IMG/VR virus record: IMGVR_UViG_3300024520_000445
Location: 1-25,815 of that record
Source of the DNA: a virus
DNA length: 25,815 nucleotides
Direction: 5' to 3' (one strand)
Numbering within the stretch: position 1 is the stretch's first letter; every line of letters begins with the position of its first letter. Both the position numbers and the translations under genes were made by a program. Under the pieces are notes generated by a model, which made no database searches, was not told where the DNA came from, and was given only the letters and a program-made list of their open reading frames with translations. Shown piece by piece: positions 1 to 24,497 of the stretch.

Positions 1-123
1 GCGTGTCCGAAAGTGAGAAGGAAAGGCGTAAAAAAGGTTGTGGTAGCGCGAACATTTCGGAATAAAAACACAAAGTCATTTGCAAGTGTTGGGGAACTTT
101 ACGCTAACATTTGCAAAAACTAA
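1..123 (+). CDS. 3' end of an unidentified basic protein (partial)
   Basis: Frame 1 is open from the first base to a TAA at 121-123 and gives the last 40 residues of a protein whose start lies left of the window. The segment is rich in Lys and Arg (for example KVRRKGVKK) and ends GELYANICKN. I do not recognise it. A strong hairpin and T-tract follow within 10 bases, which supports this being the true end of a plus-strand gene. It would belong to a transcription unit upstream of the replication promoter. Because only a short tail is visible, it could be a chance open frame. Confidence 0.4.
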   Translation, partial: ACPKVRRKGVKKVVVARTFRNKNTKSFASVGELYANICKN

Positions 124-130
124 GATGAAG

Positions 131-174
131 AAGAGGGGAAATGAAGTTTTTTCATCTTTTCCCCTCTTTTTTTT
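131..174 (+). terminator. Rho-independent terminator
   Basis: AAGAGGGGAAA (131-141) pairs with TTTTCCCCTCTT (157-168). The inner TGAA/TTCA bases can extend the stem, and a run of T residues follows to 174. It separates the gene ending at 123 from the early promoter that starts at 176. Confidence 0.8.
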
Positions 175-175
175 A

Positions 176-204
176 TTGACTTTATTGCGTAACGCAAGTA
201 TCTA
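176..204 (+). promoter_or_regulatory. Early promoter with palindromic operator in the spacer
   Basis: TTGACT at 176-181 and TATCTA at 199-204 are separated by exactly 17 bases, a sigma70-like arrangement. A TATATA a few bases further on is an alternative -10. The spacer holds the perfect odd palindrome TTGCGTAACGCAA (185-197). A repressor bound there would block polymerase directly. The first gene downstream encodes a small HTH protein, so autoregulation or control by an unseen repressor is likely (inference). Confidence 0.7.
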
Positions 205-242
205 TATATATAGGAATATACTTTTTTAAGGAGGTAACTACA

Positions 243-422
243 ATGAATGACAAAGAATTAGTTCTTGAGGTGATGGCGAAGAAAACCTGGAACCAGAAAC
301 AACTTGCTGATTGGTTACATTTGAACCGATCAAATGTATCAAGGTACCTTAATAAGGGACAGAAACTGCATCCGTCAACCAAAAGTTTACTTTTAACATT
401 CTTATCGAAGGAGATAAAATGA
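243..422 (+). CDS. Small Cro/repressor-like helix-turn-helix protein
   Basis: This 59-residue protein follows a strong AAGGAGG Shine-Dalgarno site. Residues about 15-37 (WNQKQLADWLHLNRSNVSRY) read as a classic helix-turn-helix: Q-K-Q-L-A at the start of helix 2, a turn at LHLN, and RSNVSRYL as recognition helix. Its size, position as first gene after an operator-bearing promoter, and ATGA overlap with the initiator gene fit a Cro-like early regulator that controls its own operon. It could instead be an Xre-type antitoxin-like protein, but no toxin partner is visible. DNA binding is confident from the motif. The link to the palindrome at 185-197 is inference. Confidence 0.75.
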   Translation: MNDKELVLEVMAKKTWNQKQLADWLHLNRSNVSRYLNKGQKLHPSTKSLLLTFLSKEIK

Positions 423-1327
423 AACCACAACCGTCATATTTCGCGATTATCCCAGCAGATGTAAGATATGATATTGATTTATGCCCCAACGCCAAATTAT
501 TATATGGGGAAATTACAGCCCTTGCCAAACGTGAGGGGTATTGTTACGCTGAAAATAAATATTTTGCTGATCTTTACGAAGTATCAAGGTCAGCGGTTTC
601 ACAATGGATTGGACAGCTAAAAAGATCAAGGTACATCGTTGTTAAAATTGACAAAAAGAAAAATACTCGGAAGATTTTCATAAAGCAGTCGTCAAAGATC
701 TCTTCACATGATAAATCTCTGCTAAACACCCCTTTAGCAGAGCTAAACACCTCTTTAGCAGAGCTAAACACCTCTTTAGCAGAGCTAAACACCCCTTTAG
801 CAGAGCTAAACACCCCTTTAGCAGAGCTAAATACCTCTTTAGCAGAGCTAAATAGCTCATCACCTGAAAATACAGCGCAAGCCACCGATTTAAAGACCAC
901 AAAAAAGGAGTCTAAAAGTACATATAAAAGTACATATAAAAGTACAACAGCAACAGAGCCTCACGAATCTCACGTTCAATTAGTGAATGATGCAAAACTT
1001 GCTGTTGCTGCTGTTCTTATTTCATGGGATCAAAACGATGTTGAAAAGATGCTTGATCGGTGGGATTTCCTGAACGAAAAAGAACTCAAAAAACAAATGG
1101 GGGACTTTGGGGTTCAGAACCCTCTTGAAATGGAAAGAGCCATCGAAGCAACACTGCCAAAGCTCACAAGGAGAAATACAACTGCTTTGTTTGGTTACAT
1201 CGCTAAAAGTGGGATTTTACAAGATGGAATTGCCATCCTCCCCACAGACATCACCGCTGGGACAAAACCATCAGGATACACACCACCCCAAAATATTATA
1301 GGAGGAAAATCTTATATCAATTGTTGA
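419..1327 (+). CDS. Phage replication initiator (winged-helix, lambda O-like role)
   Basis: This 302-residue protein starts by ATGA overlap with the HTH gene. Residues about 1-90 resemble the N-terminal winged-helix domain of phage replication and replisome-organiser proteins, with a pattern like LCPNAKLLYGEI, YFADLYEVSRSAVSQWI and a basic wing (KIDKKKNTRK). Residues about 101-143 are an AELNT(S/P)L heptad repeat, encoded by DNA iterons. A Lys/Ser/Thr-rich linker follows, then a C-terminal region (about 190-300) of unclear fold that may contact the helicase. The next gene is a DnaB helicase, the usual partner. The role is therefore origin recognition and helicase recruitment. The iterons inside the gene mirror the lambda O arrangement. 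Function is well supported by context, while the exact family is not. Confidence 0.75.
   Translation: MKPQPSYFAIIPADVRYDIDLCPNAKLLYGEITALAKREGYCYAENKYFADLYEVSRSAVSQWIGQLKRSRYIVVKIDKKKNTRKIFIKQSSKISSHDKSLLNTPLAELNTSLAELNTSLAELNTPLAELNTPLAELNTSLAELNSSSPENTAQATDLKTTKKESKSTYKSTYKSTTATEPHESHVQLVNDAKLAVAAVLISWDQNDVEKMLDRWDFLNEKELKKQMGDFGVQNPLEMERAIEATLPKLTRRNTTALFGYIAKSGILQDGIAILPTDITAGTKPSGYTPPQNIIGGKSYINC
721..858 (+). repeat. Six 21-bp iterons plus a partial seventh: probable replication origin
   Basis: Six tandem 21-base units run 721-846, and a partial copy follows at 847-858. Each unit has inverted arms GCTAAA and TTTAGC around a six-base centre (CACCCC, CACCTC or TACCTC) and then AGA. Copies differ only by C/T changes. 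They lie inside the initiator gene and are followed by AT-rich DNA with a repeated AAAAGTACATAT-type motif (914-946) that could be the unwinding region. This matches the known plan of lambdoid origins. Origin function is inferred. Confidence 0.75.
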
Positions 1328-1349
1328 AAATAAAAAAAGTCTGGATGAA

Positions 1350-2702
1350 GTGGCAGACATGAGTATGCAGAGATTGCCACCTCAGAATATAGAGGCAGAG
1401 GTGGCAATAGTAGGGGCTGGGTTTCTTTCTCAGTTGAGCTTTGCGATAGTGCTTGAACAGATGGAAATGTCTGATTTTCACAGGGGGAGCCATCGTAAAA
1501 TTTATCAAGTGATGTTGGATTTGATCGAGAGAGGGGAGGCTGTCGATCTGTTGACCGTTCGTGCTGAACTTGAGTGTAGAAAGCAGATCGATGATGTTGG
1601 GGGGCCTGCGTATTTGGCCTCTTTGGTTGATGATGTTCCGACAGCCGCAAACGTCGAGTTTCACGCGAAACTCGTACACGAAAAGGCCATTGCCAGGAAT
1701 CTGCTGAATGCCTCTGTTGAAATGGCGACAAAGTGCTATGAAGGTGCGCGGCTCGGTTCGGAATTATTGGAAGAAGCTCAGGATGTCATCTTCGGCCTGT
1801 CCTCTGGACAGAAAAAAACAGGGCTTGTCAGCAACCGTATTACCGCGAAAGAATGGTTTGACGATTTGGAAAAGCTCTCTGAACGTGATGGGCAACTTAG
1901 CGGTATTCCTTCCGGTTTGCAAGACTTAGATGGATTGACCTGTGGGTTTCAAAAGAAGGATCTTATCCTGATAGCTGCGAGACCAGGAATGGGAAAGTCT
2001 GCTCTGGCCGCTTGCAACATTGCAGTACACGCAGCCTCAAAAGGCTTTAATATCGCATTTTTCAGCATGGAAATGGACAAAAAACAAGTTGTGGGGAGGC
2101 AAACCTGTGCAATTGGGAAAGTCTCAACGAGTGAGGCGAGAACAGGGAAGTTCTCTGACCCTGATGCTTGGGAGAAATTGGCTTGGGCAAATGAGATTGT
2201 AGGCTCATTACCGATCTCTATCGATGATACCGCAGAACAAACGGTAGTTGAGGTCAAGAGCAAGTGTAAAAGAATGCTGATTCAAACGGGACTTGATCTG
2301 ATTGTTGTTGATTATCTTCAGTTGATGAAGACACATCAACAACACGCCAACAAAAATGACGAGGTTGGGAATATTGCACAAAGTCTTAAAAACATGGCGA
2401 TGGAGTTGGATGTCCCTGTTATTGCCATGTCTCAACTAAACAGAAAATGTGAAGAGAGGCCAGATAAACGTCCGATGTTGTCAGATTTAAGAGATAGCGG
2501 GAACTTAGAACAGGCGTCAGATATAGTGATATGTGTCTACCGTCCCGAAGAATATTTTGAGGAGGCCGAACGGGGATTGGCAGAGTTGATTATTGCGAAG
2601 TATCGTAACGGGCCTAAAGGTACTGTTCTTTGCCGTTTTTTAGGTGAGTTTACCTGTTTCGCCAACTATACACAAAGACAGGAGGACAGGGCTTTTGGAT
2701 AA
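1350..2702 (+). CDS. dnaB: Replicative DNA helicase, DnaB family
   Basis: About 450 residues, the normal DnaB length. The N-terminal domain (RLPPQNIEAE onward) is followed by a RecA-like motor with Walker A ARPGMGKSAL near residue 212 and Walker B LDLIVVDYLQLM near residue 315. Further on come QLNRK and DLRDSGNLEQASD, the conserved DnaB sensor and arginine-finger region. It would be a hexameric ATP-driven helicase that unwinds the fork after loading by the upstream initiator. The start is uncertain: GTG at 1350 and ATG at 1359 lack a good ribosome-binding site. A GGAGG at 1301-1305 is followed eight bases later by in-frame ATA, which would add about 12 residues. No intein or insertion is seen. 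Confidence 0.95.
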   Translation: MADMSMQRLPPQNIEAEVAIVGAGFLSQLSFAIVLEQMEMSDFHRGSHRKIYQVMLDLIERGEAVDLLTVRAELECRKQIDDVGGPAYLASLVDDVPTAANVEFHAKLVHEKAIARNLLNASVEMATKCYEGARLGSELLEEAQDVIFGLSSGQKKTGLVSNRITAKEWFDDLEKLSERDGQLSGIPSGLQDLDGLTCGFQKKDLILIAARPGMGKSALAACNIAVHAASKGFNIAFFSMEMDKKQVVGRQTCAIGKVSTSEARTGKFSDPDAWEKLAWANEIVGSLPISIDDTAEQTVVEVKSKCKRMLIQTGLDLIVVDYLQLMKTHQQHANKNDEVGNIAQSLKNMAMELDVPVIAMSQLNRKCEERPDKRPMLSDLRDSGNLEQASDIVICVYRPEEYFEEAERGLAELIIAKYRNGPKGTVLCRFLGEFTCFANYTQRQEDRAFG

Positions 2703-2883
2703 TCAACACATTGAGCGGGTTTTAATACAGGAGCGTGAGGCACTTCAAGGGCTAAAACGTGAATATGACCAGAGATGGCAGGCATTATTGAGGGCTGAAG
2801 CCATATTTCTTAGGGAGGGAGAGGGAAAGAAACTCATACGCTCCCGAATCACAAGAGAACTTTATTTGAAAGTGAGGTCGTAA
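2695..2883 (+). CDS. Small hypothetical early protein with TTG start
   Basis: AGGAGG at 2680-2685 sits nine bases before a TTG at 2695, which overlaps the end of the helicase gene. Starting there gives 62 residues beginning MDNQHIERVL. An upstream in-frame GTG at 2644 would lie deep inside the helicase and has no ribosome-binding site. The protein is highly charged and probably mostly helical (REALQGLKREYDQRWQALLRAE). I recognise no family. Its tight packing in the replication operon suggests a small accessory factor. Confidence 0.6.
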   Translation: MDNQHIERVLIQEREALQGLKREYDQRWQALLRAEAIFLREGEGKKLIRSRITRELYLKVRS

Positions 2884-2885
2884 GT

Positions 2886-3329
2886 ATGCCACGAAATATG
2901 TCTTTTATGTTGACAACAGAGCAGATCCGAAATAAAATAAAAACGGTAACTCGCCGTTGTGGTTGGGCTCAATTAAAAAGAGGAGAAATCGTCAATGCCT
3001 GCGTAAAGTGCATGGGATTGAAAAAAGGTGAAAAAATTGAAGTGCTTTGTCAAATCCGCGTTATTGATAAACGGATGGAACCTTTGAACGCGATAAATCA
3101 AGAGGACTGCATAAGAGAAGGTTTTCCGAACATGACACCGCAAGAGTTTGTGCTCATGTTCATGAAGCACATGAAATGTTCTGAATATCGCCCGGTAAAC
3201 AGAATTGAATTTGAATATGTGAACCAGGGTGATAACAATAGAATGAATGTGAGTTTGAAGGGGCGCGGGGAAGTATCGTGTCAAAACTCAGGTTCAGTGG
3301 CCGCGCCCCTTCAAACCACGTTATTTTAA
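2886..3329 (+). CDS. ASCH-domain-like phage protein with a repeat-derived C-terminus
   Basis: Residues 1-112 look like the phage ASCH-like family: KTVTRRCGWAQLKRGE, LKKGEKIEVL, IRVIDKRMEPLNAI, EDCIREGFPNMTPQEFVLMF and a final NRIEFEYV. ASCH proteins share a PUA-like beta-barrel thought to bind RNA or modified nucleotides. The natural domain ends near residue 112. The last roughly 35 residues (from NQGDNN) are encoded by the attC-like hairpin at 3230-3338, so the reading frame has been extended by the inserted element. The start is ATG at 2886, five bases after the preceding stop. Family assignment is from pattern memory and not tested. Confidence 0.6.
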   Translation: MPRNMSFMLTTEQIRNKIKTVTRRCGWAQLKRGEIVNACVKCMGLKKGEKIEVLCQIRVIDKRMEPLNAINQEDCIREGFPNMTPQEFVLMFMKHMKCSEYRPVNRIEFEYVNQGDNNRMNVSLKGRGEVSCQNSGSVAAPLQTTLF

Positions 3330-3338
3330 GCGTTAGAC
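3230..3338 (+). repeat. attC-like site A
   Basis: A TGATAAC box (3230-3236) opens the element and GTTAGAC (3332-3338) closes it; the latter fits the integron R' consensus GTTRRRY. Between them TTTGAAGGGGCGCGG pairs perfectly with CCGCGCCCCTTCAAA (stem 3253-3316 region), and the outer arms continue as an imperfect stem with bulges. This geometry is that of an integron cassette recombination site. The segment 3254-3332 recurs at 4842-4920 with a single difference. Confidence 0.65.
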
Positions 3339-3358
3339 GAACTCTCGAATGAGGATAC

Positions 3359-3496
3359 ATGATGGGGTACAATACAGATTTTAAAGGTGAATTGAAGTTC
3401 ATACCAGAACTAAAAGCCAGTCAACTTGCTTATATTCAGGGAATTTTAGGAGGAGACTGTCGTGATCATCCTGAATGGGGAACTTTATCAGGCTAA
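3359..3496 (+). pseudogene. Truncated phage conserved protein (N-terminal fragment)
   Basis: ATG at 3359 gives 45 residues that begin MMGYNTDFKGELKF and run through SQLAYIQGILGGDCRDHPEWG before a stop. From memory, this is the start of a common phage protein family in which YNTDF.GEL and G(E/G)DCRDHPEW are conserved, followed by a much longer domain. Here the domain is cut soon after HPEWG and replaced by AT-rich repeats. GAGGATAC upstream gives a plausible ribosome-binding site, so the fragment may still be translated. It is the first coding segment after site A and may be a captured and broken gene. A genuinely short paralogue cannot be excluded. Confidence 0.5.
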
Positions 3497-3500
3497 ATGC

Positions 3501-3530
3501 TAAAAAATACTAAAAAATACTAAAAAATAC
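3501..3530 (+). repeat. Three tandem 10-bp repeats (TAAAAAATAC)
   Basis: TAAAAAATAC is present three times in direct tandem and abuts the -35 box at 3531. AT-rich tracts at this position often act as an UP element or as operator sites (inference). Confidence 0.8.
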
Positions 3531-3559
3531 TTGACAAAAACTCTTCTTGATTGTATTGT
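3531..3559 (+). promoter_or_regulatory. Promoter for the accessory genes
   Basis: A consensus TTGACA (3531-3536) and TATTGT (3554-3559) are separated by 17 bases. Transcripts would start near 3566 and carry a leader of about 100 bases that includes the hairpin at 3629-3653. It points toward the gene at 3673 and the rest of the accessory block. Confidence 0.7.
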
Positions 3560-3580
3560 ATATCCGTAAGCTGAGACATA

Positions 3581-3665
3581 GAATAACAAAACAAGTAGAG
3601 ACATCATTGATAAAGCTCAAGTGTTCCGTGTGGCGGCGGCTAACGTCGCCACATCAAGCCGGGTG
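3581..3665 (+). repeat. Degenerate attC-like site H
   Basis: GAATAACAAAACAAG opens the element. An inner stem pairs TGTGGCG with CGCCACA around a short loop, and the element ends ATCAAGCCGGGTG, close to the AGCCGGGCGTTATC end of site D. The final GTTA box is missing, so if this is an attC it is worn. It could simply be a leader hairpin. Confidence 0.35.
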
Positions 3666-3672
3666 AAAAATT

Positions 3673-4221
3673 ATGGGATTACCAAAAGTTATATCAATAG
3701 AAGAATGGTTGAAACGAAATCCTGGGATTAAACAGGCTGAAGAAGAATCCAAAAAAGAATGTCACGAATGTTATGGTGAGGGATGGATCGAATGTGGAGG
3801 AAATATGTTGTCAATGCTAAATAAAAAAATAATCAGAAAGATTATTGAAACGAGTAATTTATTAAATGCGGTTTTTGATGCTGAATTATGTCAGAGTTGG
3901 GGGGACATTCCTGAATTTACAGAATTATACGCGGCTTTACCAGATTGGCTTACGGATGCAATTGATGCAGGCCAACTTGATTTTGATGGGGATTTTGACA
4001 GAGATTTTTGGGGGTCTGATAGTGTTGTGCAATTTTCGATTTATGCCATAAAAAAGGGCACACAGGGATTACGCGATCTTTCGGATCGGCTGGATGAATG
4101 GCAAGAACAGAATGAAAATGAGTATTCAGCATTCTGTGATGGTATGTCAAAAGCAGTATGGGCATTTATCCAGGTTCAAGAAAATTTTACAACGTTTGAT
4201 GCAATCGTGAGAGGTGGATAG
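3673..4221 (+). CDS. Hypothetical protein with DnaJ-type zinc-like motif
   Basis: 182 residues, with ATG at 3673 behind a weak CCGGGTGA site. Residues about 30-42 read CHECYGEGWIEC, a C-x2-C-x-G-x-G...C pattern like one half of the DnaJ cysteine-rich zinc module. The remainder is acidic and helical (FDGDFDRDFWGSDS, then LRDLSDRLDEWQEQNENEY). I recognise no family. The stop overlaps the GTG start of the next gene, so the two are translationally coupled and probably form one cassette behind the 3531 promoter. Confidence 0.6.
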   Translation: MGLPKVISIEEWLKRNPGIKQAEEESKKECHECYGEGWIECGGNMLSMLNKKIIRKIIETSNLLNAVFDAELCQSWGDIPEFTELYAALPDWLTDAIDAGQLDFDGDFDRDFWGSDSVVQFSIYAIKKGTQGLRDLSDRLDEWQEQNENEYSAFCDGMSKAVWAFIQVQENFTTFDAIVRGG

Positions 4222-4436
4222 TGGCAATTAAACCATTTGACATCTACTTTGGCCGCATTCAACAAGCCGGATCGAATATCCGGCTTGAACTCAAAAAACG
4301 ATTCCGTCAGGCGTTGGCGCATCGTGGAGTAGAAATTAAAAAGGGAATTGATATTCCTATGGCGGTGCAATCCGGCGAAGAAGATGGAATTATTGTCGTT
4401 AAATTATACTTCAAAAAATCAGGAATTGATGTATAA
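4221..4436 (+). CDS. Small hypothetical protein, coupled to upstream gene
   Basis: 71 residues from a GTG at 4221 that shares one base with the preceding TAG. AGAGGTGG just upstream is the ribosome-binding site. The protein is basic at the N-terminus (LELKKRFRQALAHRGVEIKK) and ends in a beta-like stretch (GIIVVKLYFKKSG). No family is recognised. Its stop codon lies inside the GTATAAC box of the next hairpin element, the same gene-to-element junction seen repeatedly in this block. Confidence 0.55.
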   Translation: MAIKPFDIYFGRIQQAGSNIRLELKKRFRQALAHRGVEIKKGIDIPMAVQSGEEDGIIVVKLYFKKSGIDV

Positions 4437-4519
4437 CAAGAAAAATGTCAGGCATGTATTGTGAGTGACACCGCGCACTTATGACAGTCATCACTCACAG
4501 TACATGTTTGGATGATAGG
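4431..4519 (+). repeat. attC-like site I (imperfect inverted repeat)
   Basis: GTATAACAAG (4431-4440) includes the preceding stop codon. TGTGAGTGA (4460-4468) pairs with TCACTCACA (4491-4499), and CATGTA (4453-4458) pairs with TACATG (4501-4506), giving a bulged stem with a 22-base loop. No clear GTTRRRY box closes it (GGATGATAGG instead). It is a degenerate cassette site or an unrelated hairpin. Confidence 0.4.
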
Positions 4520-4527
4520 TGAAATAT

Positions 4528-4833
4528 ATGTTGTTAACTGAAAAAGAAGAAAAAGCATTGATAGCTATTACAGAAGAAGCTCTTGAAAATATGGGTGGAG
4601 AAGAACCAAACGATTTACATGAAGATAATTTTTCATGGTTTAACCGTTCGGTAATCTCAACAAGGACTTGTTTCAGTAACCATGTTGCTGCTGGTCTGAT
4701 GTCATCTCTGGAAGAAAAAGGGCTTATTTTCCATAGTGAACCAGATCATGAATTCGGATGGTGTTTGGAAGAAGAGGGCATTGATAAAGCTCAAGCTTTG
4801 TTGTCGAATGATAGCCTTCTAACAATGGCGTAA
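4528..4833 (+). CDS. Hypothetical small acidic protein, possible winged-helix fold
   Basis: ATG at 4528 lies six bases after AGGTG and is preferred to the in-frame GTG at 4519. The 101-residue product begins MLLTEKEEKALIAITEEALENMGG. It contains VISTRTCFSNHVAAGLMSSLEEKGLI, a helix pair that resembles the recognition helix and wing of a winged-helix protein. No family is certain. The last codons (CTA ACA ATG GCG TAA) overlap the left end of site B, so the gene and the element are physically interlocked. Confidence 0.55.
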   Translation: MLLTEKEEKALIAITEEALENMGGEEPNDLHEDNFSWFNRSVISTRTCFSNHVAAGLMSSLEEKGLIFHSEPDHEFGWCLEEEGIDKAQALLSNDSLLTMA

Positions 4834-4920
4834 AATCGACTTTTGAAGGGGCGCGGGGAAGTATCGTGTCAAAACTCAGGTTCAGTGGCCGCCCCCCTTC
4901 AAACCACGTTATTTTAAGCG
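4817..4920 (+). repeat. attC-like site B (near-identical core to site A)
   Basis: TTCTAACAATGG begins the element inside the end of the upstream gene. The 79 bases at 4842-4920 match 3254-3332 with one substitution (GCCCCCC for GCGCCCC). The arms TTTGAAGGGG and CCCCTTCAAA form the stem, and TAAAAT matches on both outer arms. The right end reads AAGCGGAGG instead of AAGCGTTAGAC, so the R' box is lost and replaced by the next gene's Shine-Dalgarno. Confidence 0.6.
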
Positions 4921-4931
4921 GAGGTAGTATC

Positions 4932-5645
4932 ATGCAAGTCATATATGAGCCAACCGGAAAAGCGAAGGAATACGCAGATCTCGCCTGTAATCTGTATAAT
5001 GGGTGTACGCATGGCTGTCAATACTGCTATGCAAAACGATATAAGAAAGAAGAGTATTATACAGCAGCCAATCCGAAGAAAGATGTCATCGAAAAGCTCA
5101 AAAAAGACGTCGATCAACTGAATGGAAACACACCGGAAATTCTGTTGAGTTTTCAGGGTGACGTGTATCAACACGCAGAAATGGAACTCCAGTTGACTCG
5201 ACAATCTCTTGAAATCTTACGAGAGAAGAATTTACCGTTTACGATACTGACAAAAGGCGGAACGAGAGCAGTCAGAGATTTTGATATTTTGGAAGGGTAT
5301 CAAGCCAGATTTGGAACGTCTCTTGTGTGGCTCGAACAAGTTGATGCCAGCAAATATGAGCCGGGAGCAGCATTAATCGGCGACAGAATCGAAGCGATTG
5401 AACAAGCCAAGAAACGATGCATTCCGACATGGATCAGCCTTGAACCAGTAATTGACACTGAACAAGCTCTTGAACTGGTTTTTACATTACATTCTATTGT
5501 TGATTTTTGGAAAATTGGAAAGATTAATCACAATAAAGAGCTTGAGAGTCAATCTGATTGGTTGAAATTTCGAGAAGATATTACAGAAATGCTCGATAGA
5601 TTTCAATGTCAATATTACATCAAAAAGAGTCTCGCTGAACTATAA
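4932..5645 (+). CDS. Radical SAM protein (SPL/DUF5131-like, phage type)
   Basis: GGAGG at 4920-4924 sets the start at ATG 4932, giving 237 residues. An upstream in-frame start would read through site B and is rejected. The 4Fe-4S motif is C25-T-H-G-C29-Q-Y-C32-Y, the radical-SAM CxxxCxxC signature. It is preceded by CNLYNGC, as in spore-photoproduct-lyase-like enzymes. Downstream ILLSFQGDVYQ and LPFTILTKGG fit strands of a partial TIM barrel, and TWISLEPVIDT is a typical later strand. Such enzymes cleave SAM to a 5'-deoxyadenosyl radical. The substrate is unknown, with nucleic acid repair or modification plausible for the subfamily. The gene sits alone between two hairpin elements, as a single cassette would. 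Confidence 0.8.
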   Translation: MQVIYEPTGKAKEYADLACNLYNGCTHGCQYCYAKRYKKEEYYTAANPKKDVIEKLKKDVDQLNGNTPEILLSFQGDVYQHAEMELQLTRQSLEILREKNLPFTILTKGGTRAVRDFDILEGYQARFGTSLVWLEQVDASKYEPGAALIGDRIEAIEQAKKRCIPTWISLEPVIDTEQALELVFTLHSIVDFWKIGKINHNKELESQSDWLKFREDITEMLDRFQCQYYIKKSLAEL

Positions 5646-5652
5646 ACAGGTG

Positions 5653-5734
5653 AATAACGTGGTTTGAAGGGGCGGGCGAAATAATTGGGGAGGAGCAGGA
5701 CAAGTTTCAATCCTCCCTTAATATGCAATTCGCC
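5653..5734 (+). repeat. attC-like site C: left arm plus internal hairpin
   Basis: The 22 bases at 5653-5674 are the exact reverse complement of the right arm shared by sites A and B. This is what the left arm of a fully paired site of the same family would be. Immediately inside lies a second stem: GGCGAA (5675-5680) with TTCGCC (5729-5734), and GGGAGGA (5688-5694) with TCCTCCC (5711-5717). No matching right arm follows, so the site looks rebuilt or interrupted. Confidence 0.55.
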
Positions 5735-5871
5735 ATAACAATGCAAATGCACCAGACTTGAGGAACGCGGCGCAATTTCAGCATGGTTCTTCCGTTCAAG
5801 GGTTGTGGTTGTGTCGGGTGTGTTGCCCGCTACCGAGGGCGGGTTTCAGCAGGTGAAGCCGGGCGTTATCA
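5733..5871 (+). repeat. attC-like site D
   Basis: CCATAACAATGC opens and GAAGCCGGGCGTTATCA closes a 139-base noncoding element, with internal CCCGC/GCGGG and CACC/GGTG pairing. Length and ends resemble long chromosomal-integron attC sites. Together with site C it fills the 256-base gap between the radical-SAM gene and the gene at 5902. I see no ORF or promoter there. Confidence 0.5.
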
Positions 5872-5901
5872 TGCACTTGAAAGGAGAAAGGAGATTTGAA
5901 T

Positions 5902-6135
5902 ATGTTCGGTACAGTTGGGGATGCAGCAACGTTCATAGCTACGATGGGAGAAATGCAAATTTCGTATGCTAATAAGGATCTTTTTAAAATTGCGCACGCG
6001 CTAAATATAGCCTACAACAAAGGGATGCTTGATGGTTTATCGAAAGCAGATCATTCCGATCTTGTCGCTGAAACTGAACTTAATTTGAGCGATAGTCGGT
6101 CACATTTAAAAATAATTAGCCATGGCGCTGTATAA
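5902..6135 (+). CDS. Small hypothetical protein upstream of the methyltransferase
   Basis: ATG at 5902 follows AAAGGAGAAAGGAGAT. The 77-residue product begins MFGTVGDAATFIATMGEMQISY, then carries KDLFKIAHALNIAYNKGMLDGL, an amphipathic helix, and ends in a polar tail. No family is recognised. It overlaps the methyltransferase start by 14 bases, which implies translational coupling and possibly a shared function. The two genes together form the segment between site D and site E. Confidence 0.55.
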   Translation: MFGTVGDAATFIATMGEMQISYANKDLFKIAHALNIAYNKGMLDGLSKADHSDLVAETELNLSDSRSHLKIISHGAV

Positions 6136-6970
6136 AAATGGCATCAACCGGACGCAAAAGGCCGGTTCGGGATGGTACGAAATGTTGAGAAGGTTAGGAA
6201 AGAAAACGAATCTGTTACCCAAACTGCTGCCGTTATTCCCGGAAAACATTACGACGTTTATTGACATGTTCATGGGAAGCGGGGCTGTCACCTTCGCGAT
6301 GATTGACCGGGCAAAGTACATCATTTCAAATGACAAAGATGAAGATGTGTTTAACTTGTTCATGGTGCTTAAGGAACATAAGGAAGCACTTGAAGAGGCA
6401 ATCCGTATGATGCCCGTACATGACAAGCTCTTTCAATACTGGAAAGAGCAAGAAGAGAATGATTGTGTTTGGAAAGCGACACGCTTTTTATTTTTGTCAA
6501 ATTTTAGTTTTTTAGGGCATTCAGATACTCTTAATTTAGGGCAAAATAATTGTAAGCGCATACTGATCGACAAAATTAAAGACGCATTTGATTTGATTTC
6601 ATTTGTTCAGTTTGTAAATGACGATTTCAGGGATATTTTAAAAAGAATAGCGTTTAGGCATGAACTCGATTTGAATAGAGCTTTTATTTATGCAGATCCG
6701 CCATATATTGGAACGTCGAATAATTACGCAGAAGGTTTCACAGAAGATGATACACGGGATTTGTTTTCTATCCTGACAGGTTCAGGCATTCGTTTTGCCG
6801 TGTCGGAGTTCAATAATCCTCTCGTCATAGACATGGCAGAAGAACATGGTTTATTCGTCACAGAATTAGGCGAAAGGTGTAATTTAAAGAACAGACGGAC
6901 GGAAATCTTGATTACAAATTATGATCCGGTCAGACGGCAAATCAGTCTGTTTGACCTGGAAATGAACTAA
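6122..6970 (+). CDS. DNA adenine methyltransferase (D12 / Dam class)
   Basis: 282 residues, the usual length for D12-class N6-adenine methyltransferases. Motif I is DMFMGSG (residues 48-54), the SAM-binding FxGxG loop. Motif IV is DPPY (192-195), the catalytic site, in the order typical of alpha-group enzymes. The C-terminus LKNRRTEILITNYDP is the conserved family end. It transfers a methyl group from SAM to adenine in a short site. GATC is the common target but cannot be read from sequence. In phages such orphan enzymes protect against host restriction or mark DNA. No nuclease partner is present. Translation probably depends on coupling to the gene at 5902, since the region before ATG 6122 lacks a clear ribosome-binding site. 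Confidence 0.9.
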   Translation: MALYKNGINRTQKAGSGWYEMLRRLGKKTNLLPKLLPLFPENITTFIDMFMGSGAVTFAMIDRAKYIISNDKDEDVFNLFMVLKEHKEALEEAIRMMPVHDKLFQYWKEQEENDCVWKATRFLFLSNFSFLGHSDTLNLGQNNCKRILIDKIKDAFDLISFVQFVNDDFRDILKRIAFRHELDLNRAFIYADPPYIGTSNNYAEGFTEDDTRDLFSILTGSGIRFAVSEFNNPLVIDMAEEHGLFVTELGERCNLKNRRTEILITNYDPVRRQISLFDLEMN

Positions 6971-6973
6971 GGT

Positions 6974-7070
6974 GTCTAACAATGCGCCTGACTGCAAGCG
7001 CGAAGCCAGGAGATGAGATTATGAGAAGGAAGCAGAGGTTTGGTTGCCACTATGAACAGCGTACAGGCGC
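6974..7070 (+). repeat. attC-like site E
   Basis: GTCTAAC (6974-6980) fits the R'' consensus RYYYAAC exactly. Five bases later GCGCCTG (6984-6990) pairs with CAGGCGC (7064-7070). The spacing matches the R''-spacer-L'' layout of integron sites. The expected GTTRRRY partner is not clear in the following GTGTTTGGCGTCTGAC. The 281 bases from here to 7251 hold sites E and F and no supported gene. Confidence 0.5.
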
Positions 7071-7082
7071 GTGTTTGGCGTC

Positions 7083-7104
7083 TGACGCATAACGCTATGC
7101 GTCA
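7083..7104 (+). repeat. Perfect 9-bp inverted repeat
   Basis: TGACGCATA (7083-7091) and TATGCGTCA (7096-7104) flank a 4-base ACGC loop. It lies between sites E and F in DNA without a gene. It may be an operator, a small terminator-like hairpin without T-tract, or part of a merged element. Confidence 0.6.
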
Positions 7105-7134
7105 AATGGCGCAGTTGAAAATGATGTCGAATAA

Positions 7135-7235
7135 TGCCAACAAAACAGAATGGAAACGACTTTGAGGGGCGCGGCGTTGGTTGACATGTCAAACTCCGGT
7201 TTTCCCCTCAAACCGGCTCAATCTGGGCGTTATCT
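7135..7235 (+). repeat. attC-like site F
   Basis: TTTGAGGGG (7161-7169) pairs with CCCCTCAAA (7204-7212). Outer arms share AAC, CAGA and CG blocks with bulges, and the element ends CTGGGCGTTATCT. The central GTCAAACTCCGGTT is clearly related to GTCAAAACTCAGGTT in sites A and B, so F belongs to the same family. The interior also holds the palindrome TTGACATGTCAA. GTTATCT (7229-7235) is the R' box and starts the next cassette. Confidence 0.6.
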
Positions 7236-7251
7236 ATCAGGAGAAAAAATC

Positions 7252-7476
7252 GTGAGTACATACTATACATTGCAACAGTTAGCATATAACGATTATTTCG
7301 AAAAAAATAAAGAAAAAGTGTGGCAACCCGTAGAATTAGAAAGAGATAAATTCAAAGCTGAGACAGAAGAAGAAATTCTTTTGTATTTTGAAGACAAGAA
7401 AGATGAATTTGACCCTGGTGAATTAAGGGCATTGAAAATCGTTGAAGATATTGACCAAATAGACATCAATGAATAG
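7252..7476 (+). CDS. Small acidic hypothetical protein (single-gene cassette)
   Basis: AGGAG at 7239-7243 precedes GTG at 7252, giving 74 residues beginning MSTYYTLQQLAYNDYFEKN. An upstream in-frame ATG at 7150 would translate site F and is rejected. The protein is strongly acidic (ETEEEILLYFEDKKDEFDPGEL, ending VEDIDQIDINE), a profile shared with some DNA-mimic and anti-restriction proteins. This is suggestive only, and no family is recognised. The gene is bounded by exactly complementary boxes GTTATCT before and AGATAAC after. It is the clearest cassette in the window. Confidence 0.6.
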   Translation: MSTYYTLQQLAYNDYFEKNKEKVWQPVELERDKFKAETEEEILLYFEDKKDEFDPGELRALKIVEDIDQIDINE

Positions 7477-7492
7477 ATAACAATGCGCTGAC
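7475..7492 (+). repeat. attC-like site G, left arm only
   Basis: AGATAAC (7475-7481) overlaps the stop of the preceding gene and is the exact reverse complement of GTTATCT at 7229-7235. AATGCGCTGACC follows, closely matching AATGCGCCTGAC of site E. The right half is absent: the sequence passes straight into a methyltransferase remnant. Confidence 0.55.
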
Positions 7493-7499
7493 CAGGAAA

Positions 7500-7541
7500 G
7501 ATTTAAAGAACAGACGGAGGGAGATTTTAAATTACCACCTC
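7500..7541 (+). pseudogene. Remnant of a second D12 methyltransferase C-terminus
   Basis: The frame starting GAT TTA AAG encodes DLKNRRREILNY, matching NLKNRRTEILITNY at the end of the complete methyltransferase. The DNA is also similar (TTTAAAGAACAGACGGA shared with about 6886-6902). No upstream catalytic part exists, so this is a 3' fragment left at the boundary between the accessory block and the late operon. Sequence beyond 7541 (a CCACCTCCACCTCC run) may be more of the same remnant. Confidence 0.5.
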
Positions 7542-7903
7542 CACCTCCAAAAACGCCAAAAGGTACCGAATTGGAAGGATTCAATACAAAATTTGAAAAC
7601 ATTCCCAATGTTCCAGGGTTCAATCGTTGCTGTGAATCCGTTAATTTTTACTTTTGTTGAGCCTACGGCTGTCGCCGCGACTCTATAATCAAGAAAATTT
7701 TTTATGACAGATTCCGGGAGCCGAACGAATCCCATTCTATGCCCGCATGTCAAAATTCCGCAAAGAAATTTCCGCCATCGAGTCGGACGGTATTGAATAA
7801 TGCCCGATCTTTTATTTTTCAGGGTCATGAGTTCAATTTTATCGAGATCAATCATGTAATATCTGATAGGATCATTACTATAGGTCAATTTCCCTTCTTT
7901 CAT
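7532..7903 (-). CDS. Hypothetical protein, last gene of the late operon
   Basis: ATG at 7903 lies one base after the upstream gene's stop, giving 123 residues starting MKEGKLTYSNDP. A TTG at 7930 is possible but would sit inside that gene. The central part (SGIIQYRPTRWRKFLCGILTCGHRMGFVRLPESVIKNFL) is basic and contains a short hydrophobic stretch. The C-terminus FWRFWRWRW is Trp/Arg rich and is antisense to the methyltransferase remnant, so the natural protein may have ended near 7600 and been extended by insertion. Function unknown. Its place after a holin candidate fits a lysis or late accessory role, but nothing confirms this. Confidence 0.45.
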   Translation of the reverse strand: MKEGKLTYSNDPIRYYMIDLDKIELMTLKNKRSGIIQYRPTRWRKFLCGILTCGHRMGFVRLPESVIKNFLDYRVAATAVGSTKVKINGFTATIEPWNIGNVFKFCIESFQFGTFWRFWRWRW

Positions 7904-7904
7904 G

Positions 7905-8318
7905 TTAATGTCCCGGGTAGAATTTTGCAAGCTTTTCTATTTCTTCTTGAATATCTCTGTGTTGCTTGGCTGCCATTTCTATTTTTTTATCAAATCTTTC
8001 GATCTTATTGTGGATCTCTCCTCTCATGTCCTCTATGGCATGATTAATATTACTTAGAGCCTTCGTCATCTCTCTGATAGGAGAGACGAAGATATTGCCT
8101 AAATAGGACACCACAATAACTATAGCAAGAGCAATCCCTGGTGTGCTGTTCAATAGGGGGAGAACCTCTTTCAATCTATTTGTTTGATCATCTGTCATTC
8201 CAGACAAGAACCAGAGTATCCCTCCCATTATTACTGGCAACGCATAAGGGCCATTAAGGAGCGGAAGAAATATAGATAGCGAACTCTGTTTTAAATCTTT
8301 AATTTCCTTCGTTGGCAT
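7905..8318 (-). CDS. Membrane protein with two TM segments and coiled coil (holin candidate)
   Basis: 137 residues. Two hydrophobic stretches are visible: about residues 18-40 (PLLNGPYALPVIMGGILWFLSG) and about 60-78 (TPGIALAIVIVVSYLGNIFV). A helical, charged tail with coiled-coil character follows (IEDMRGEIHNKIERFDKKIEMAA). Two TM segments with a cytoplasmic tail, a position after the tail genes and the lack of other lysis genes suggest a holin. No endolysin is recognised in the window, so the assignment is tentative. It could instead be a spanin-like or anchoring protein. Confidence 0.5.
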   Translation of the reverse strand: MPTKEIKDLKQSSLSIFLPLLNGPYALPVIMGGILWFLSGMTDDQTNRLKEVLPLLNSTPGIALAIVIVVSYLGNIFVSPIREMTKALSNINHAIEDMRGEIHNKIERFDKKIEMAAKQHRDIQEEIEKLAKFYPGH

Positions 8319-10786: not shown

Positions 10787-11440
10787 CTAATAACGTATGA
10801 TGGCTTGGACAATGACAGAGGGTTGCACGGTATTATGAGGAGACCCGCTCCCTGACGTTGTCGTTGTAAGTGTGTCCCATGCTGCCGTCGGGCTTGTCGT
10901 ATTAATATCAGTTCCTCCACCCGATCCAGTCGTATAATCGTGATCATGTGTCGCGTTTTCGGCCTCTGCATTCGCGTGGTCTTCTTCTCCAATTGTATCA
11001 CCTAATGTTCGGGCGGTTAGACCGCCACCGGTACCGGCTCCCATTGGAGATCGGCCTCTGGAATCAGGCATTGTCAGAGTTTTGTTGGCAGCAAAATCAG
11101 CCGCAGCACTCGCCCCCCTGCCTGTCGAAACAGGAGCGTATGTGTCAGACAATGTATCCCAAAGATGTGTAAAAAGGGCTTCATATTTTGACGCGGCATT
11201 ATCAGCCCCACTGGATGCACTCCCTATGCTCCCATAGCATAAAATCCATCGATCAGGATCAGGGGAGGAACTCCAAAAACCATACCGTACCTCACCAATG
11301 ATCCCAGTAGGAGGGTCATCTAAAAATGTGCGTAGTTCAGACGCGGTTGTTGAGTCTGTTCCATCGCTAAGTGTTCCACTTTGAGACTGCGTGACAGACA
11401 GATCTATGTCGGCGCCTGTGTGTGCTGAGGTATAGCTCAA
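10787..11440 (-). CDS. Tail collar domain protein (short tail fibre-like)
   Basis: 217 residues from a TTG at 11440 that overlaps the upstream TGA; AAGGAGAG provides the ribosome-binding site. GEVRYGFWSSSPDPDRWILCYG then LFTHLWDTLSDTYAP and LTMPDSRGRSPMGAGTG form the phage tail-collar domain, in which LPD.RGR..mG is the hallmark. The C-terminus is His/Asn rich (HANAEAENATHDHDY) and ends NTVQPSVIVQAIIRY, typical of the family and of T4 gp12-like fibre tips. It probably trimerises at the tail tip and may bind the host or a metal ion. Confidence 0.8.
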   Translation of the reverse strand: MSYTSAHTGADIDLSVTQSQSGTLSDGTDSTTASELRTFLDDPPTGIIGEVRYGFWSSSPDPDRWILCYGSIGSASSGADNAASKYEALFTHLWDTLSDTYAPVSTGRGASAAADFAANKTLTMPDSRGRSPMGAGTGGGLTARTLGDTIGEEDHANAEAENATHDHDYTTGSGGGTDINTTSPTAAWDTLTTTTSGSGSPHNTVQPSVIVQAIIRY

Positions 11441-14400
11441 AATTCTCTCCTTACGTTAATCTTTGCTTCATTGCTGGTCAGGAAGAGCAAACCGGTTGAC
11501 TCGAAAAATACTTCGTACAATGAGATGAGGCTTAATAATTGTAATTGAGCCTGGAAATTATCAAGATTTATTTCAAGGCCGCGTAATTCAAAAATAGTGT
11601 TCTCCTGTACTTCCCCGTTATTATCCCGTAGCAGAGAAAAAGAACCCTCTATATGATCATAAAGATCTAAAATAAGAAATTTTGTGTCTTGGCCTGAATA
11701 GTTGAGTATCCAATCAGGAAAACGATAAAAGTCAAAAATCGCGGCTATAATTGTGTCAACGGTGGCTGTGTTGCGTGTCCAATCGAAAGCTAATGACCAT
11801 TTTCGATCCCCATAAATCCCTACGCTTTGGCCTTCTGACACTTCATCAGCCGTTCGGAAATAGGAAGTCAGGGCATTATTTTTAAATCGTCTGTCCACGT
11901 CGGCTGATGATAACGCATAATCAATAATAAGCCGATTACACACATTTGCGATTGATTTTTGAATATCGTAATGTATGGCATTATATTCTTGCACTTCTTC
12001 AACAATTTTCGGGGTAATGGACAGTGGACGCAAATATACATCAAGTGTCCCATCCTCCGCAAAATTGAACCATCCCAAAAAAGAATTGAGGATATTTTGC
12101 AGCCAATATCCTAATGTATTATTTGATAGGATAATCCCGGCGCAGGTATAGCCATTCTGATCAGCCGCATTGGTCGCGTCAGAAAAGGAACGCTGCCCTT
12201 TTTGCCACGTGACATCAAGCAATGTCGCAACATAATCAAGGAAATCGTCAATGACCGAGATCGGATTCGTGATTAATGTTCCCCCATCATCTTTTCCTTT
12301 ACATCTCACAGTCACCACACCGCCAGGGTCTGAGGCAAAGTCAAGGATCGCAATGTTTCCTTGACTTTCATAGTCATTGGATTCGTCAAAAACCCAACCT
12401 GATGGCGTTTCTACACCATCAACGTAAACGGTAACGACATTCCCATTAGCAACCGATAGGAGAGGCCACCCCGAAACGCAATAAACAAAATTGACTGTAT
12501 CTATCCCTGGCGCAGTCCAGACGGCTTCATCGGAATTTTCGGTCATATCTCCGTAGACGAGAGGCAGATTGACATTTTGTTGATTTTCACCTGGATCAGC
12601 ATATCTCCCGGCAGTGGGCATGATAATCTCCGTGAGAGCCTCGACTCCATCTTCAACTGATGTTGTACTTATTATTTCCTCAATTTCTCCGAATTCCTCC
12701 CATACCCCATCAACAAGAGCCGTGTCAAGCCCTTGTATCAATTCAGGGAAATCTGTTAAAAGATTGTCGTTATCAATATTTTGGAAAATGGACAGAGGTA
12801 TTCCGGCAAGGGTTGATGTGATAATTTTGTAAATTCCACCACCATCGCCCAAGCCCCCCCCTCCAAAGTCTTTCCCGATTATTAAGGTATCATTTCCTTC
12901 ATCATCTGTATTCATCAAAGAAACATCTTGGTTAAATTTTTGAATCCTATCATTTCCAGTATCACAAATGTATAATTTATTGTTGCTGTCAAGGGCGATA
13001 CCTTGCACTCCCTGGAATTGCCCATCACCTGACCCTGATGTCCCAAACTCATACAACTCTTGACCTGTATATCCGATATATCTTATCTCTGTTGAAAACC
13101 CACCATAGAAAAAAAGGGGAGCCAATTTAATTTGCTTTATTAGATTGCCTGGCGTTGTTGCAATGTTGATATTTTTGACAAAAATAAGATCTAAATCTCG
13201 AACGTTTACCCTGTCGTTTACGCTATCTGCAATGTACAGATGTACCCCGTCTGTATCAACGCCAAATGGTGCATTAAATTGATCATCCCCACTCCCAAAA
13301 CTTCCCACATCATCTATAAAAGTCAAGGATGTATTATGTTTCCGAATTTTATCATTATTGTTATCAGCGGTATAAAGAAAAGTACCATCAGTACAAATTC
13401 CTCCCCCTGTAACCCCATCAAAAAGATACACGCTATCAACCAAAGTAAATGTCAAAGTGTATTTAGCAATATTGACTTTGTTGATTGTGTCTTCATAAAC
13501 TTCATACACATAAAAATAATCACCATCAGTACAGATATCTATCGGGAGTTGACCCGTAAAATCAGTCAAATTATAGAGAGCTACAAAATTAAGATCTGTA
13601 TCTCTTTTTACGATACGATTATTTCCAAAATCGCAAATATACAAAAAATTATTTAAAATTACAATCCCTGTTGGATCATCTAAATTATCATTTCCTGAAC
13701 CAGGCGATCCATATTTTGAATTAAAAGTAAGTAACGCGGGGAGGGGTTGTACATCTGAATTCAGGTAGAAATCCCTACAGGTGATTGAAGCACTCGCGGG
13801 ATCCATCGTGAAAGTAAGTTGTGAGAGTTCTTGTTGATTGATGGTAATGCCATCAAAAGTGATCGCTCTGAGGTCTTGTGGAGCCGATGGGCTGGCACTA
13901 TTCCAATAGATGTAGGGATGGTTATCACTGTCGAGGCCGACAAGAAGCCGTGTATTTCCATAGGCATCATTTTCGATTTCAAGGATGTGTTGATCAACTC
14001 CAAGATCATCAACGACAAAAGTTGTCGTGAGAACCCAATAGTCTTCGGTATAAAACGCATCCTGAAGTTCAGCATAGGTAAAACTTTCTTCAGCCCCAGT
14101 ATTTCCTATCCCTGGATTCCGCATTGAGTAGAGTGTTTCTGTATTAATGGTTGGATCATCCGGTTCGGTGTTTTTTACAGCCTGATTCGCCGATATTTGG
14201 ATAGAGAGCGTTGACATTTCTACGCTTTGGATGATCCCGTTAAAAAGTGGCTGAAGATCAGCAAAAGATGAGTCAAAATACCCCTGAAAAATTAACAATT
14301 GTTGTCCGATTAATTCTTCTCTCGCCAATAAATTAGTAAAGTATTCATCGGCATTGTCACAAGTGAGAGTATAGCTTGACATTTCCGTTTGTGATAGAGT

Positions 14401-14628
14401 TTGCAGGATATTATTTGAATTCTCAGATAACGATTTCCGAAATGTGCCGAATGAGAGAACCCGCGCTGACCAATCTATAATATTGTATGGTGTTCCTGTA
14501 ACATGGTCTCCCGTTGGCGTCTCCTTACCGACCACATGGCATCCAAGATTTGAAAAAACGAATGCCAAAATAAAAGGTTTGTCGCCTCGCATTCTTGCAG
14601 CATTGTATGTTTCTGAGAAACGTCTCAT
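11437..14628 (-). CDS. Large tail-tip protein with an NHL-type beta-propeller
   Basis: 1063 residues, start ATG 14628 overlapping the upstream stop (ATGA). Residues 1-150 and about 620-1063 look like a distal-tail or tail-hub scaffold (early LTCDNADEYF, late NFAEDGTLDVYLRPLSITP and FELRGLEINLDNFQAQLQLLSL). Residues about 190-300 are a LamG-like beta-sandwich. Residues about 305-570 hold NHL-type blades: GIVILNNFLYICDFGNNRIVK, GVDTDGVHLYIADSVNDRV and GIALDSNNKLYICDTGNDRIQK, with two weaker ones (GDYFYVYEVYEDTINKV, GTFLYTADNNNDKIRK). NHL propellers bind proteins, RNA or glycans. On a tail tip, host recognition is the simplest idea (inference). Confidence 0.7.
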   Translation of the reverse strand: MRRFSETYNAARMRGDKPFILAFVFSNLGCHVVGKETPTGDHVTGTPYNIIDWSARVLSFGTFRKSLSENSNNILQTLSQTEMSSYTLTCDNADEYFTNLLAREELIGQQLLIFQGYFDSSFADLQPLFNGIIQSVEMSTLSIQISANQAVKNTEPDDPTINTETLYSMRNPGIGNTGAEESFTYAELQDAFYTEDYWVLTTTFVVDDLGVDQHILEIENDAYGNTRLLVGLDSDNHPYIYWNSASPSAPQDLRAITFDGITINQQELSQLTFTMDPASASITCRDFYLNSDVQPLPALLTFNSKYGSPGSGNDNLDDPTGIVILNNFLYICDFGNNRIVKRDTDLNFVALYNLTDFTGQLPIDICTDGDYFYVYEVYEDTINKVNIAKYTLTFTLVDSVYLFDGVTGGGICTDGTFLYTADNNNDKIRKHNTSLTFIDDVGSFGSGDDQFNAPFGVDTDGVHLYIADSVNDRVNVRDLDLIFVKNINIATTPGNLIKQIKLAPLFFYGGFSTEIRYIGYTGQELYEFGTSGSGDGQFQGVQGIALDSNNKLYICDTGNDRIQKFNQDVSLMNTDDEGNDTLIIGKDFGGGGLGDGGGIYKIITSTLAGIPLSIFQNIDNDNLLTDFPELIQGLDTALVDGVWEEFGEIEEIISTTSVEDGVEALTEIIMPTAGRYADPGENQQNVNLPLVYGDMTENSDEAVWTAPGIDTVNFVYCVSGWPLLSVANGNVVTVYVDGVETPSGWVFDESNDYESQGNIAILDFASDPGGVVTVRCKGKDDGGTLITNPISVIDDFLDYVATLLDVTWQKGQRSFSDATNAADQNGYTCAGIILSNNTLGYWLQNILNSFLGWFNFAEDGTLDVYLRPLSITPKIVEEVQEYNAIHYDIQKSIANVCNRLIIDYALSSADVDRRFKNNALTSYFRTADEVSEGQSVGIYGDRKWSLAFDWTRNTATVDTIIAAIFDFYRFPDWILNYSGQDTKFLILDLYDHIEGSFSLLRDNNGEVQENTIFELRGLEINLDNFQAQLQLLSLISLYEVFFESTGLLFLTSNEAKINVRREF

Positions 14629-23937: not shown

Positions 23938-24497
23938 TATGCTACCTCCAAAATATCTTGACAGCCCTCTGCTTCTGCCTGTAGAGAGGCGTCGTAAATG
24001 TTTTTCCCTGATTCAACGAGTTCATTCACCCGTTGTGCCATCGTTTTTGGCTTCGCATCTGGTTGTGCAAATGAGCTCTGTCCTTGTGTCGACAAGGATA
24101 CGAACAGATTATCTGCTAAGGACATTTCAAATAAGGAGTTAAAAACTTCTGCACACTTTGAACGTCCAGTTTCGCCTTCAGCGAGCTCAAAAATTCCATC
24201 TTTTACAATGATTGGATGAATAATTTCAAGGGCTGCCGGGCTTACTTGGTAAGCTTTCCCTTCATGTTGGCGGATTCTGGACAATTCAGCAAGAGTTTGA
24301 GTTACTACGACAGCATCTTGTTTTTCCTTAAGTTTAATGATCATTTCATCCTTCTTTACGGATGCCGAATTCGCTTCTCTTACCATTCCCTCCAACTCAA
24401 CGATTTTTGAGGCTTGCTCAACGATTTTTGAGTCTTGCTTAATGATATTAAGCTTCATCTCCTGTAGTACTACCAATTCTTCTGTCTTTTCGGGCAT
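23937..24497 (-). CDS. Nested in-frame scaffold protein
   Basis: Within the protease gene the codons CAG GAG GAA AGC AAT precede ATG 24497 and create AGGAGG eight bases before it. A separate product of 186 residues beginning MPEKTEELVVLQEMKLN would contain only the coiled-coil scaffold. This mirrors the known nested scaffold of lambda (C/Nu3) and Mu (I/Z). Internal start inferred from the ribosome-binding site and the domain boundary. Confidence 0.7.
   Translation of the reverse strand: MPEKTEELVVLQEMKLNIIKQDSKIVEQASKIVELEGMVREANSASVKKDEMIIKLKEKQDAVVVTQTLAELSRIRQHEGKAYQVSPAALEIIHPIIVKDGIFELAEGETGRSKCAEVFNSLFEMSLADNLFVSLSTQGQSSFAQPDAKPKTMAQRVNELVESGKNIYDASLQAEAEGCQDILEVA

Follow-up and report, generated by a model that had tools for sequence, protein, structure and literature searches.

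Within a virus record of 25,815 bases (IMG/VR, classed linear; hereafter the window, meaning the whole stretch that was analyzed), an array of 21-bp palindromic repeats lies inside an open reading frame and is translated as part of its protein. This locus raises the question of whether the repeat is kept as DNA, in the form of binding sites for an origin or an operator, or as a peptide, or whether it is a product of slippage without function. An earlier note on this DNA had proposed an iteron origin inside the initiator gene, and the proposal was followed up here in the window, in relatives of the encoded protein and by comparison with known systems.

The initiator gene and its iteron array

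Early genes of the window occupy the + strand up to about 7.5 kb; from there on, structural genes are on the − strand. The features around the array are these:

243 to 422, + strand: HTH protein of 59 aa, a probable regulator (from sequence; weak XRE/HTH matches, none above the Pfam cut-off)
419 to 1327, + strand: putative replication initiator gene, 302 aa (HTH_36; phrog_19658)
437 to 682, + strand: winged-helix DNA-binding domain, residues 7 to 88 (AF2 model; phage relatives)
587 to 625, + strand: predicted recognition helix, residues 57 to 69 (helix from the AF2 model; co-variation in relatives)
717 to 742, + strand: first iteron, with 10-bp perfect arms around CACCCC (dyad inspection)
721 to 852, + strand: iteron array, 21 bp × 6.3, with GCTAAA/TTTAGC arms (Tandem Repeats Finder; palindrome counts)
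913 to 946, + strand: AT-rich 12-bp repeats TAAAAGTACATA, candidate unwinding element (Tandem Repeats Finder)
965 to 1228, + strand: C-terminal helical region, residues 183 to 270 (AF2 block means of 53 to 73)
1350 to 2702, + strand: DnaB-type replicative helicase (TIGR00665, 444.9 bits against a cut-off of 385.25)

The stop of the HTH gene overlaps the initiator start in an ATGA at 419 to 422, and the DnaB gene comes right after the initiator reading frame. Relatives of the helicase are scattered over many hosts, the best at less than 60% identity. A distant blastn comparison of window positions 1 to 8000 with phages returned nothing beyond a segment of the helicase, present in two records of a single Bacillus phage; a search with the predicted major head protein gave no match, and no Rfam families or tRNAs were found in the window. 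Cumulative GC skew climbs to about 8 kb and then declines, as gene direction does; since skew tracks gene direction, it is uninformative on the origin and was rejected as evidence for it.

Several other elements of the window were recorded. At 128 to 175, a strong hairpin with a T run behind it is terminator-like, and downstream of it, upstream of the HTH gene at 243, lie TTGACT with an internal palindrome, TTGCGTAACGCAA (185 to 197), and TATATATA. The region from 128 to 210 looks like an operator within a promoter, and no second copy of TTGCGTAACGCAA was found in the window at up to two mismatches. An AT-rich tandem repeat, AAATACTAAA (10 bp × 3.7), lies in an inter-ORF gap at 3495 to 3531. 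The window also encodes a Radical-SAM/DUF5131-like protein (4866 to 5645; uncharacterized phage family phrog_13321, E = 4.6e-25), a D12-class adenine methyltransferase that is possibly a self-protection gene (6122 to 6970), and an NHL-repeat protein of 1063 aa that adjoins the tail genes and is possibly receptor-binding (11437 to 14628). A 21-bp repeat of 2.4 copies lies within a 405-aa ORF (24396 to 24446), and a 15-bp repeat of 2.5 copies (25778 to 25815) stops exactly at the record end and may have halted assembly.

The 302-aa protein is, as predicted from its sequence, a phage replication initiator with an HTH_36 winged helix. HTH_36 was matched at the N terminus (residues 23 to 73) with E = 1.8e-8 and 34.5 bits against a Pfam cut-off of 25, and phrog_19658, "replication initiation protein," was matched with E = 3.1e-25 over residues 6 to 157, a stretch that takes in the repeat. 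The winged helix shares 45 to 56% identity with ten phage relatives and was modeled with AF2 block means of 93 to 98 over residues 11 to 90. Block means were 48 to 63 in the repeat-encoded linker, where a helix predicted at 106 to 123 covers part of the repeat. The C-terminal region, which had no Pfam match at E ≤ 10, is presumed to contact the helicase or a loader.

When the winged-helix profile was run against PDB sequences, nothing was matched significantly (best E, 0.05), and Foldseek found no match at E ≤ 0.001. The best-scoring initiators among solved structures were entries titled Rep or initiator (4pql, 4pt7, 5kbj, and 4pta), which we take, from their titles, to be RepA_N proteins. Model residues 9 to 92 matched 4pt7_B with a Z of 9.6 and 2.3 Å over 84 residues, at 11% identity. 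Matches titled initiator or Rep scored well (Z 8.2 to 9.8) but level with ordinary winged helices; 4pql_A (Z 9.8) and 4pt7_B tied with 3cta (Z 10.2), a winged-helix protein of another kind.

The palindromic iterons of the window stand directly after the winged helix. Tandem Repeats Finder reported a period of 21 bp with 96% matches and no indels over 6.3 copies, and the pattern TTTAGC-N3-GCTAAA (up to one mismatch) occurred six times in the window, every time inside the array, against 0.07 expected from 100 dinucleotide-preserving shuffles. These results confirm the six iterons and their arms as described in the earlier note, together with the in-frame seven-residue repeat: translated in the frame of the 419-to-1327 ORF, the array reads LLNTPLAELNTSLAELNTSLAELNTPLAELNTPLAELNTSLAELNS, a series of LNT(P/S)LAE heptads. 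The linker contained 7 palindromes; in 1000 synonymous-codon shuffles, the count averaged 0.88 and never rose above 4.

Each repeat contains two dyads, GCTAAA-N6-TTTAGC and TTTAGC-AGA-GCTAAA; at every one of the six places, the 6-bp arms of both are perfect. We lean toward GCTAAA-N6-TTTAGC, the dyad of the earlier note, because its 5-6-5 spacing equals that of the family described below, because variation sits in the N6 centre (CACC(C/T)C) while the arms are constant, and because the first copy, and only the first, extends to 10-bp arms. It is also favored by the window's nearest relative (L019; 66% winged-helix identity, likewise with a 21-bp repeat and two alternative dyads), whose K62 fits an A at arm position 5 in that reading only. 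The register TTTAGC-AGA-GCTAAA is favored by the position of the ACC box, which in the family too lies outside the arms; it was set behind on the four points above.

The AT-rich repeats that had been noted after the array were recovered at 913 to 946 with a period of 12 bp (2.8 copies, 100% matches). AT content is 0.72 to 0.78 at 899 to 958 against 0.50 to 0.62 at 719 to 918, and 539 to 679 likewise reaches 0.72 to 0.78. TAAGTACATATAAAA is also found after the array of the nearest relative. In the window, some 60 nt separate the array from the AT-rich stretch, a longer distance than the family median of 4 nt between last site and motif.

In-gene iterons and DNA-level selection among relatives

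Neither the whole initiator nor DnaB, scanned as a single sequence against IMG/VR, returned a relative, and winged-helix alignments were therefore used. The gene set comprised 14 loci from annotated phages, the best 80 of at least 576 IMG/VR relatives, and the best 80 of 268 GTDB relatives, giving, with the window, 175 genes (171 distinct), of which 162 were long enough. In this best-match sample, a repeat after the winged helix beat all of 20 codon-order shuffles in 130/162 genes, and 142/162 had at least one anchored site (see below). The best periods among the 130 genes were 24 bp (27 genes), 45 (24), 22 (21), 15 (16), 12 (12), 23 (10), 69 (6), and 21 (3, the window included), with others in 11; the 12- and 15-bp periods were the AT-rich element in the cases inspected. 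Repeat sequences vary widely between phages, and their position in the gene is alike. The common plan among the sequences listed is a palindrome on an A-rich six-base centre, with an ACCC/GGGT box between sites, followed by TAATAATACA-type AT-rich DNA. With two queries, the gene after the initiator was DnaB-like in 28/155 cases and DnaC/I-like in 18/155. The same initiator type also occurred on two contigs titled archaeal MAGs (L101 and L152), which are probably misbinned phage contigs.

Across 122 relatives, AT content in the 60 nt past the last site was 0.78 to 0.82, against a gene mean of 0.68. A TAATAATACA-like motif, which encodes NNT(S/I)-type stretches, followed the last anchored site in 109 of these genes compared with 12/122 after shuffling. 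This element is a candidate unwinding element and might also be read as a single strand; its place after the last site supports the suggestion that the AT-rich stretch of the window is a candidate melting zone.

Selection on the DNA was assessed over codons 82 to 150 of 157 genes, with the winged-helix region as control. Palindromes in this region numbered 485, against a mean of 248.6 and a maximum of 279 in 100 synonymous shuffles; the control held 208, against a mean of 184.2 and a maximum of 215. Gene by gene, 19/157 alone exceeded all 100 shuffles. Sites were then anchored on (CC or GG)TA plus an A-rich N6, ignoring the arms, a pattern found in this analysis rather than a published criterion or family definition, and 335 sites were obtained in the 142 genes. 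Their five-base arms paired at 3.33 of 5 positions against 2.09 when permuted (maximum of 1000, 2.25), a count that is not blind, as the anchor was chosen after inspection of the family. Pairing was 0.91 to 1.64 when the arms were slid by 1 to 3 bases, and 17 different perfect arms occurred among the anchored sites.

The earlier note had pointed out that a 21-bp unit, being a multiple of three, can change copy number without a frameshift. This holds for the window and is no rule of the family: 45/110 spacings between neighboring sites were divisible by three, 22- and 23-bp spacings were common, and 45/76 genes had at least one spacing that was not a multiple of three, so that the DNA repeat cannot yield a peptide repeat there. 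The palindrome excess, the co-variation of the arms, and the out-of-frame spacings show that the thing selected is the DNA. We propose that the heptads serve as a flexible linker and that the DNA repeat, for the most part, simply carries this peptide along.

Recognition helix and iteron arms

An arm was used if 4 or more of the 5 positions of its site paired, a limit that left 96/142 genes. Of the winged-helix columns, residues 62, 59, and 58 (67 representatives, window numbering) had the highest mutual information with arm bases, and the AF2 model places these three on helix 57 to 69. Among 68 representatives, R62 went with C at arm position 5 in 27/32 and K62 with A in 12/14; in a set of 88, the counts were 37/42 and 14/16. 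Longer combinations were also seen, with ET..R accompanying TTGAC in 10/12 representatives, VS..K accompanying TTAAA in 7/7, TS..K accompanying TTGAA in 3/3, and HT..Q accompanying TGTAC in 3/3. An arginine that reads the guanine opposite C agrees with general knowledge of protein-DNA contacts.

To set this co-variation apart from relatedness, pairs of genes with the same or different arms were matched on identity outside the helix (30 to 55% band, mean 0.51 in both groups). In this band, residue 62 differed in none of the 47 same-arm pairs, compared with 74% of the 1330 pairs with different arms; the corresponding shares were 6% and 41% for residue 59 and 68% and 92% for residue 58, the cells of these pair counts being mutually dependent. 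Residue 58 ranked fifth here, after 65 and 22; residues 58, 59, and 62 were the top three columns in the 55 to 65% and 65 to 80% bands.

Hold-out genes served as a test on unseen relatives. Further scans gave 164 loci, including the best 80 of at least 598 and the best 80 of at least 574 relatives; 129 that shared more than 80% identity with an earlier gene or with one another were removed, leaving 35, of which 22 had anchored sites, 13 had none, and 16 had usable arms. R62 went with C5 in 9/9, K62 with A5 in 3/3, and V58 with A3 in 5/5, while K58 was mixed.

Together, these counts suggest that recognition helix and iteron arms evolve together in a partly readable code. We consider it likely that residues 58, 59, and 62 would set the arm of the iterons that the same gene carries some 100 bp further on, so that reader and site form one block, with a specificity that may be predicted and that would be changed by block exchange. 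The further suggestion that such an origin can evolve freely was not borne out, as changes in the arms accompany changes in the helix.

The proposed code rests on the relatives, and the window array falls outside the anchored pattern used for it. The (CC/GG)TA-N5-A-rich N6-N5 site is absent from the window, whose array has another spacer, and none was seen in the nearest relative by inspection. The window residues S58/A59/Q62 form a combination without counterpart among the representatives; Q62 occurred in 3/88, all with H58/T59. The window is an ordinary yet clear case, unusual in its 21-bp register.

The origin model, its alternatives, and known systems

We put at roughly 85% the probability that 721 to 852 is the iteron part of a phage origin located within its own initiator gene. 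The winged helix at the N terminus of the 302-aa protein would bind the inverted GCTAAA/TTTAGC half-sites, probably in the form of several dimers along the array; the bound complex would open the AT-rich stretch near 913 to 946; and the C-terminal half would bring in the phage DnaB helicase encoded just downstream. We infer these steps, and origin activity itself. The central claim of the earlier note is upheld as a prediction by the relatives' layout, the DNA-level selection, and the helix-arm co-variation, and its frame argument as a rule and its free evolution are not.

A winged helix and palindromic sites would suit a repressor too, and the structure matches include many MarR/CRP-type regulators; the protein might then bind within its own gene to repress or time transcription, with the origin elsewhere. 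Such a role, which could partly hold together with an origin, is improbable as the whole explanation: the sites lie hundreds of bases into the gene rather than at a promoter, relatives have the AT-rich element past the last site, the protein matches replication-initiator families, and the helicase gene comes next.

Even less probable is selection on the peptide, with the heptads forming a coiled coil or oligomerization stalk and the DNA repeat as a by-product. Leucines at 4-3 spacing, weak matches to coiled-coil families, and the predicted helix over part of the repeat speak for it; a proline in 3/6 heptads, the low model confidence of the linker, the 45/76 relatives whose 22/23-bp or other out-of-frame spacings give no peptide repeat, and the excess of palindromes over synonymous shuffles speak against it. 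The available text of PMC5703833 also describes an origin-encoded linker in pSK41 Rep that can be deleted in frame. Functionless tandem duplication would fit copies that are 96% alike, as after a recent expansion, but we regard it as the least probable reading of all, given that relatives carry unrelated repeat sequences at the same position, that the arms stay perfect while the six-base centre varies, and that the arms are coupled to the recognition helix in relatives.

The predicted origin, which we favor over these alternatives, is of a kind already known from lambda O, RepA_N, and pPR9 Rep. By sequence, the nearest relatives of the window protein are HTH_36 (PF13730) phage initiators (PHROG 19658, 270, and 428), found in phages of Staphylococcus, Lactobacillus, Enterococcus, and Butyrivibrio, among others. 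They share the winged helix, in-gene iterons right behind it, the AT-rich element, and often a helicase or loader gene next. They differ in period, mostly 22 to 24 bp with an A-rich centre against 21 bp and CACC(C/T)C in the window, and in the ACCC/GGGT box between sites, which is a feature of the family unlike the window; the C-terminal half of the window initiator is unrelated to theirs by tblastn.

In pPR9 Rep, according to the available text of PMC5703833, a phage-like HTH_36 domain replaces the RepA_N domain on a pSK41-type C terminus, domain and origin having been exchanged as one block of about 500 bp, and autonomous replication was shown. Likened to the window by description rather than by sequence comparison, this Rep has the same Pfam domain and differs in its plasmid location and its C terminus. 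The same text reports that the N-terminal domain of pSK41 Rep binds Rep boxes placed centrally within rep itself. RepA_N initiators such as this one resemble the window protein in their mid-gene sites and have a winged-helix N terminus whose match to the model, at 11% identity for 4pt7_B, is level with that of 3cta; the RepA_N domain (pfam06970) was absent among Pfam families at E ≤ 1 for the window initiator.

Lambdoid origins sit in the middle of O and combine inverted-repeat iterons with an AT-rich region, and iterons number 4 in lambda and 6 in Stx phages, an in-frame difference that adds 13 aa to O (available text of PMC7466680). The lambda-O-like layout suggested earlier is supported by iterons and an AT-rich region in mid-gene in the window as well (721 to 852 and 913 to 946). 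The predicted partner differs, being DnaB itself in the window and not a P-type loader as for lambda O. PHROG "O-like" profiles matched the window initiator at 4e-7 and 0.0018, over stretches that include the repeat; the lambda-O Pfam family was absent at E ≤ 1, and no lambda O structure was among the structure matches listed.

The most interesting result goes beyond the earlier finding: a proposed recognition code that can be put to the test across a large phage initiator family. No account of a helix-arm code and no survey of in-gene iterons was found in the open-access literature searched, which included passages of papers that mention HTH_36; subscription papers were outside this scope, and the result is weak evidence of novelty.

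To our knowledge, most phage origins have never been mapped. If the iterons and the code hold, sequence alone could be enough to find the origin, and to assign its specificity class, in many temperate phages and prophages, and phages and plasmids that can share or block an origin could be predicted in the same way. The family would also offer a natural data set on the co-evolution of a DNA-binding protein with sites on the same stretch of DNA, where the site is confined by a reading frame.
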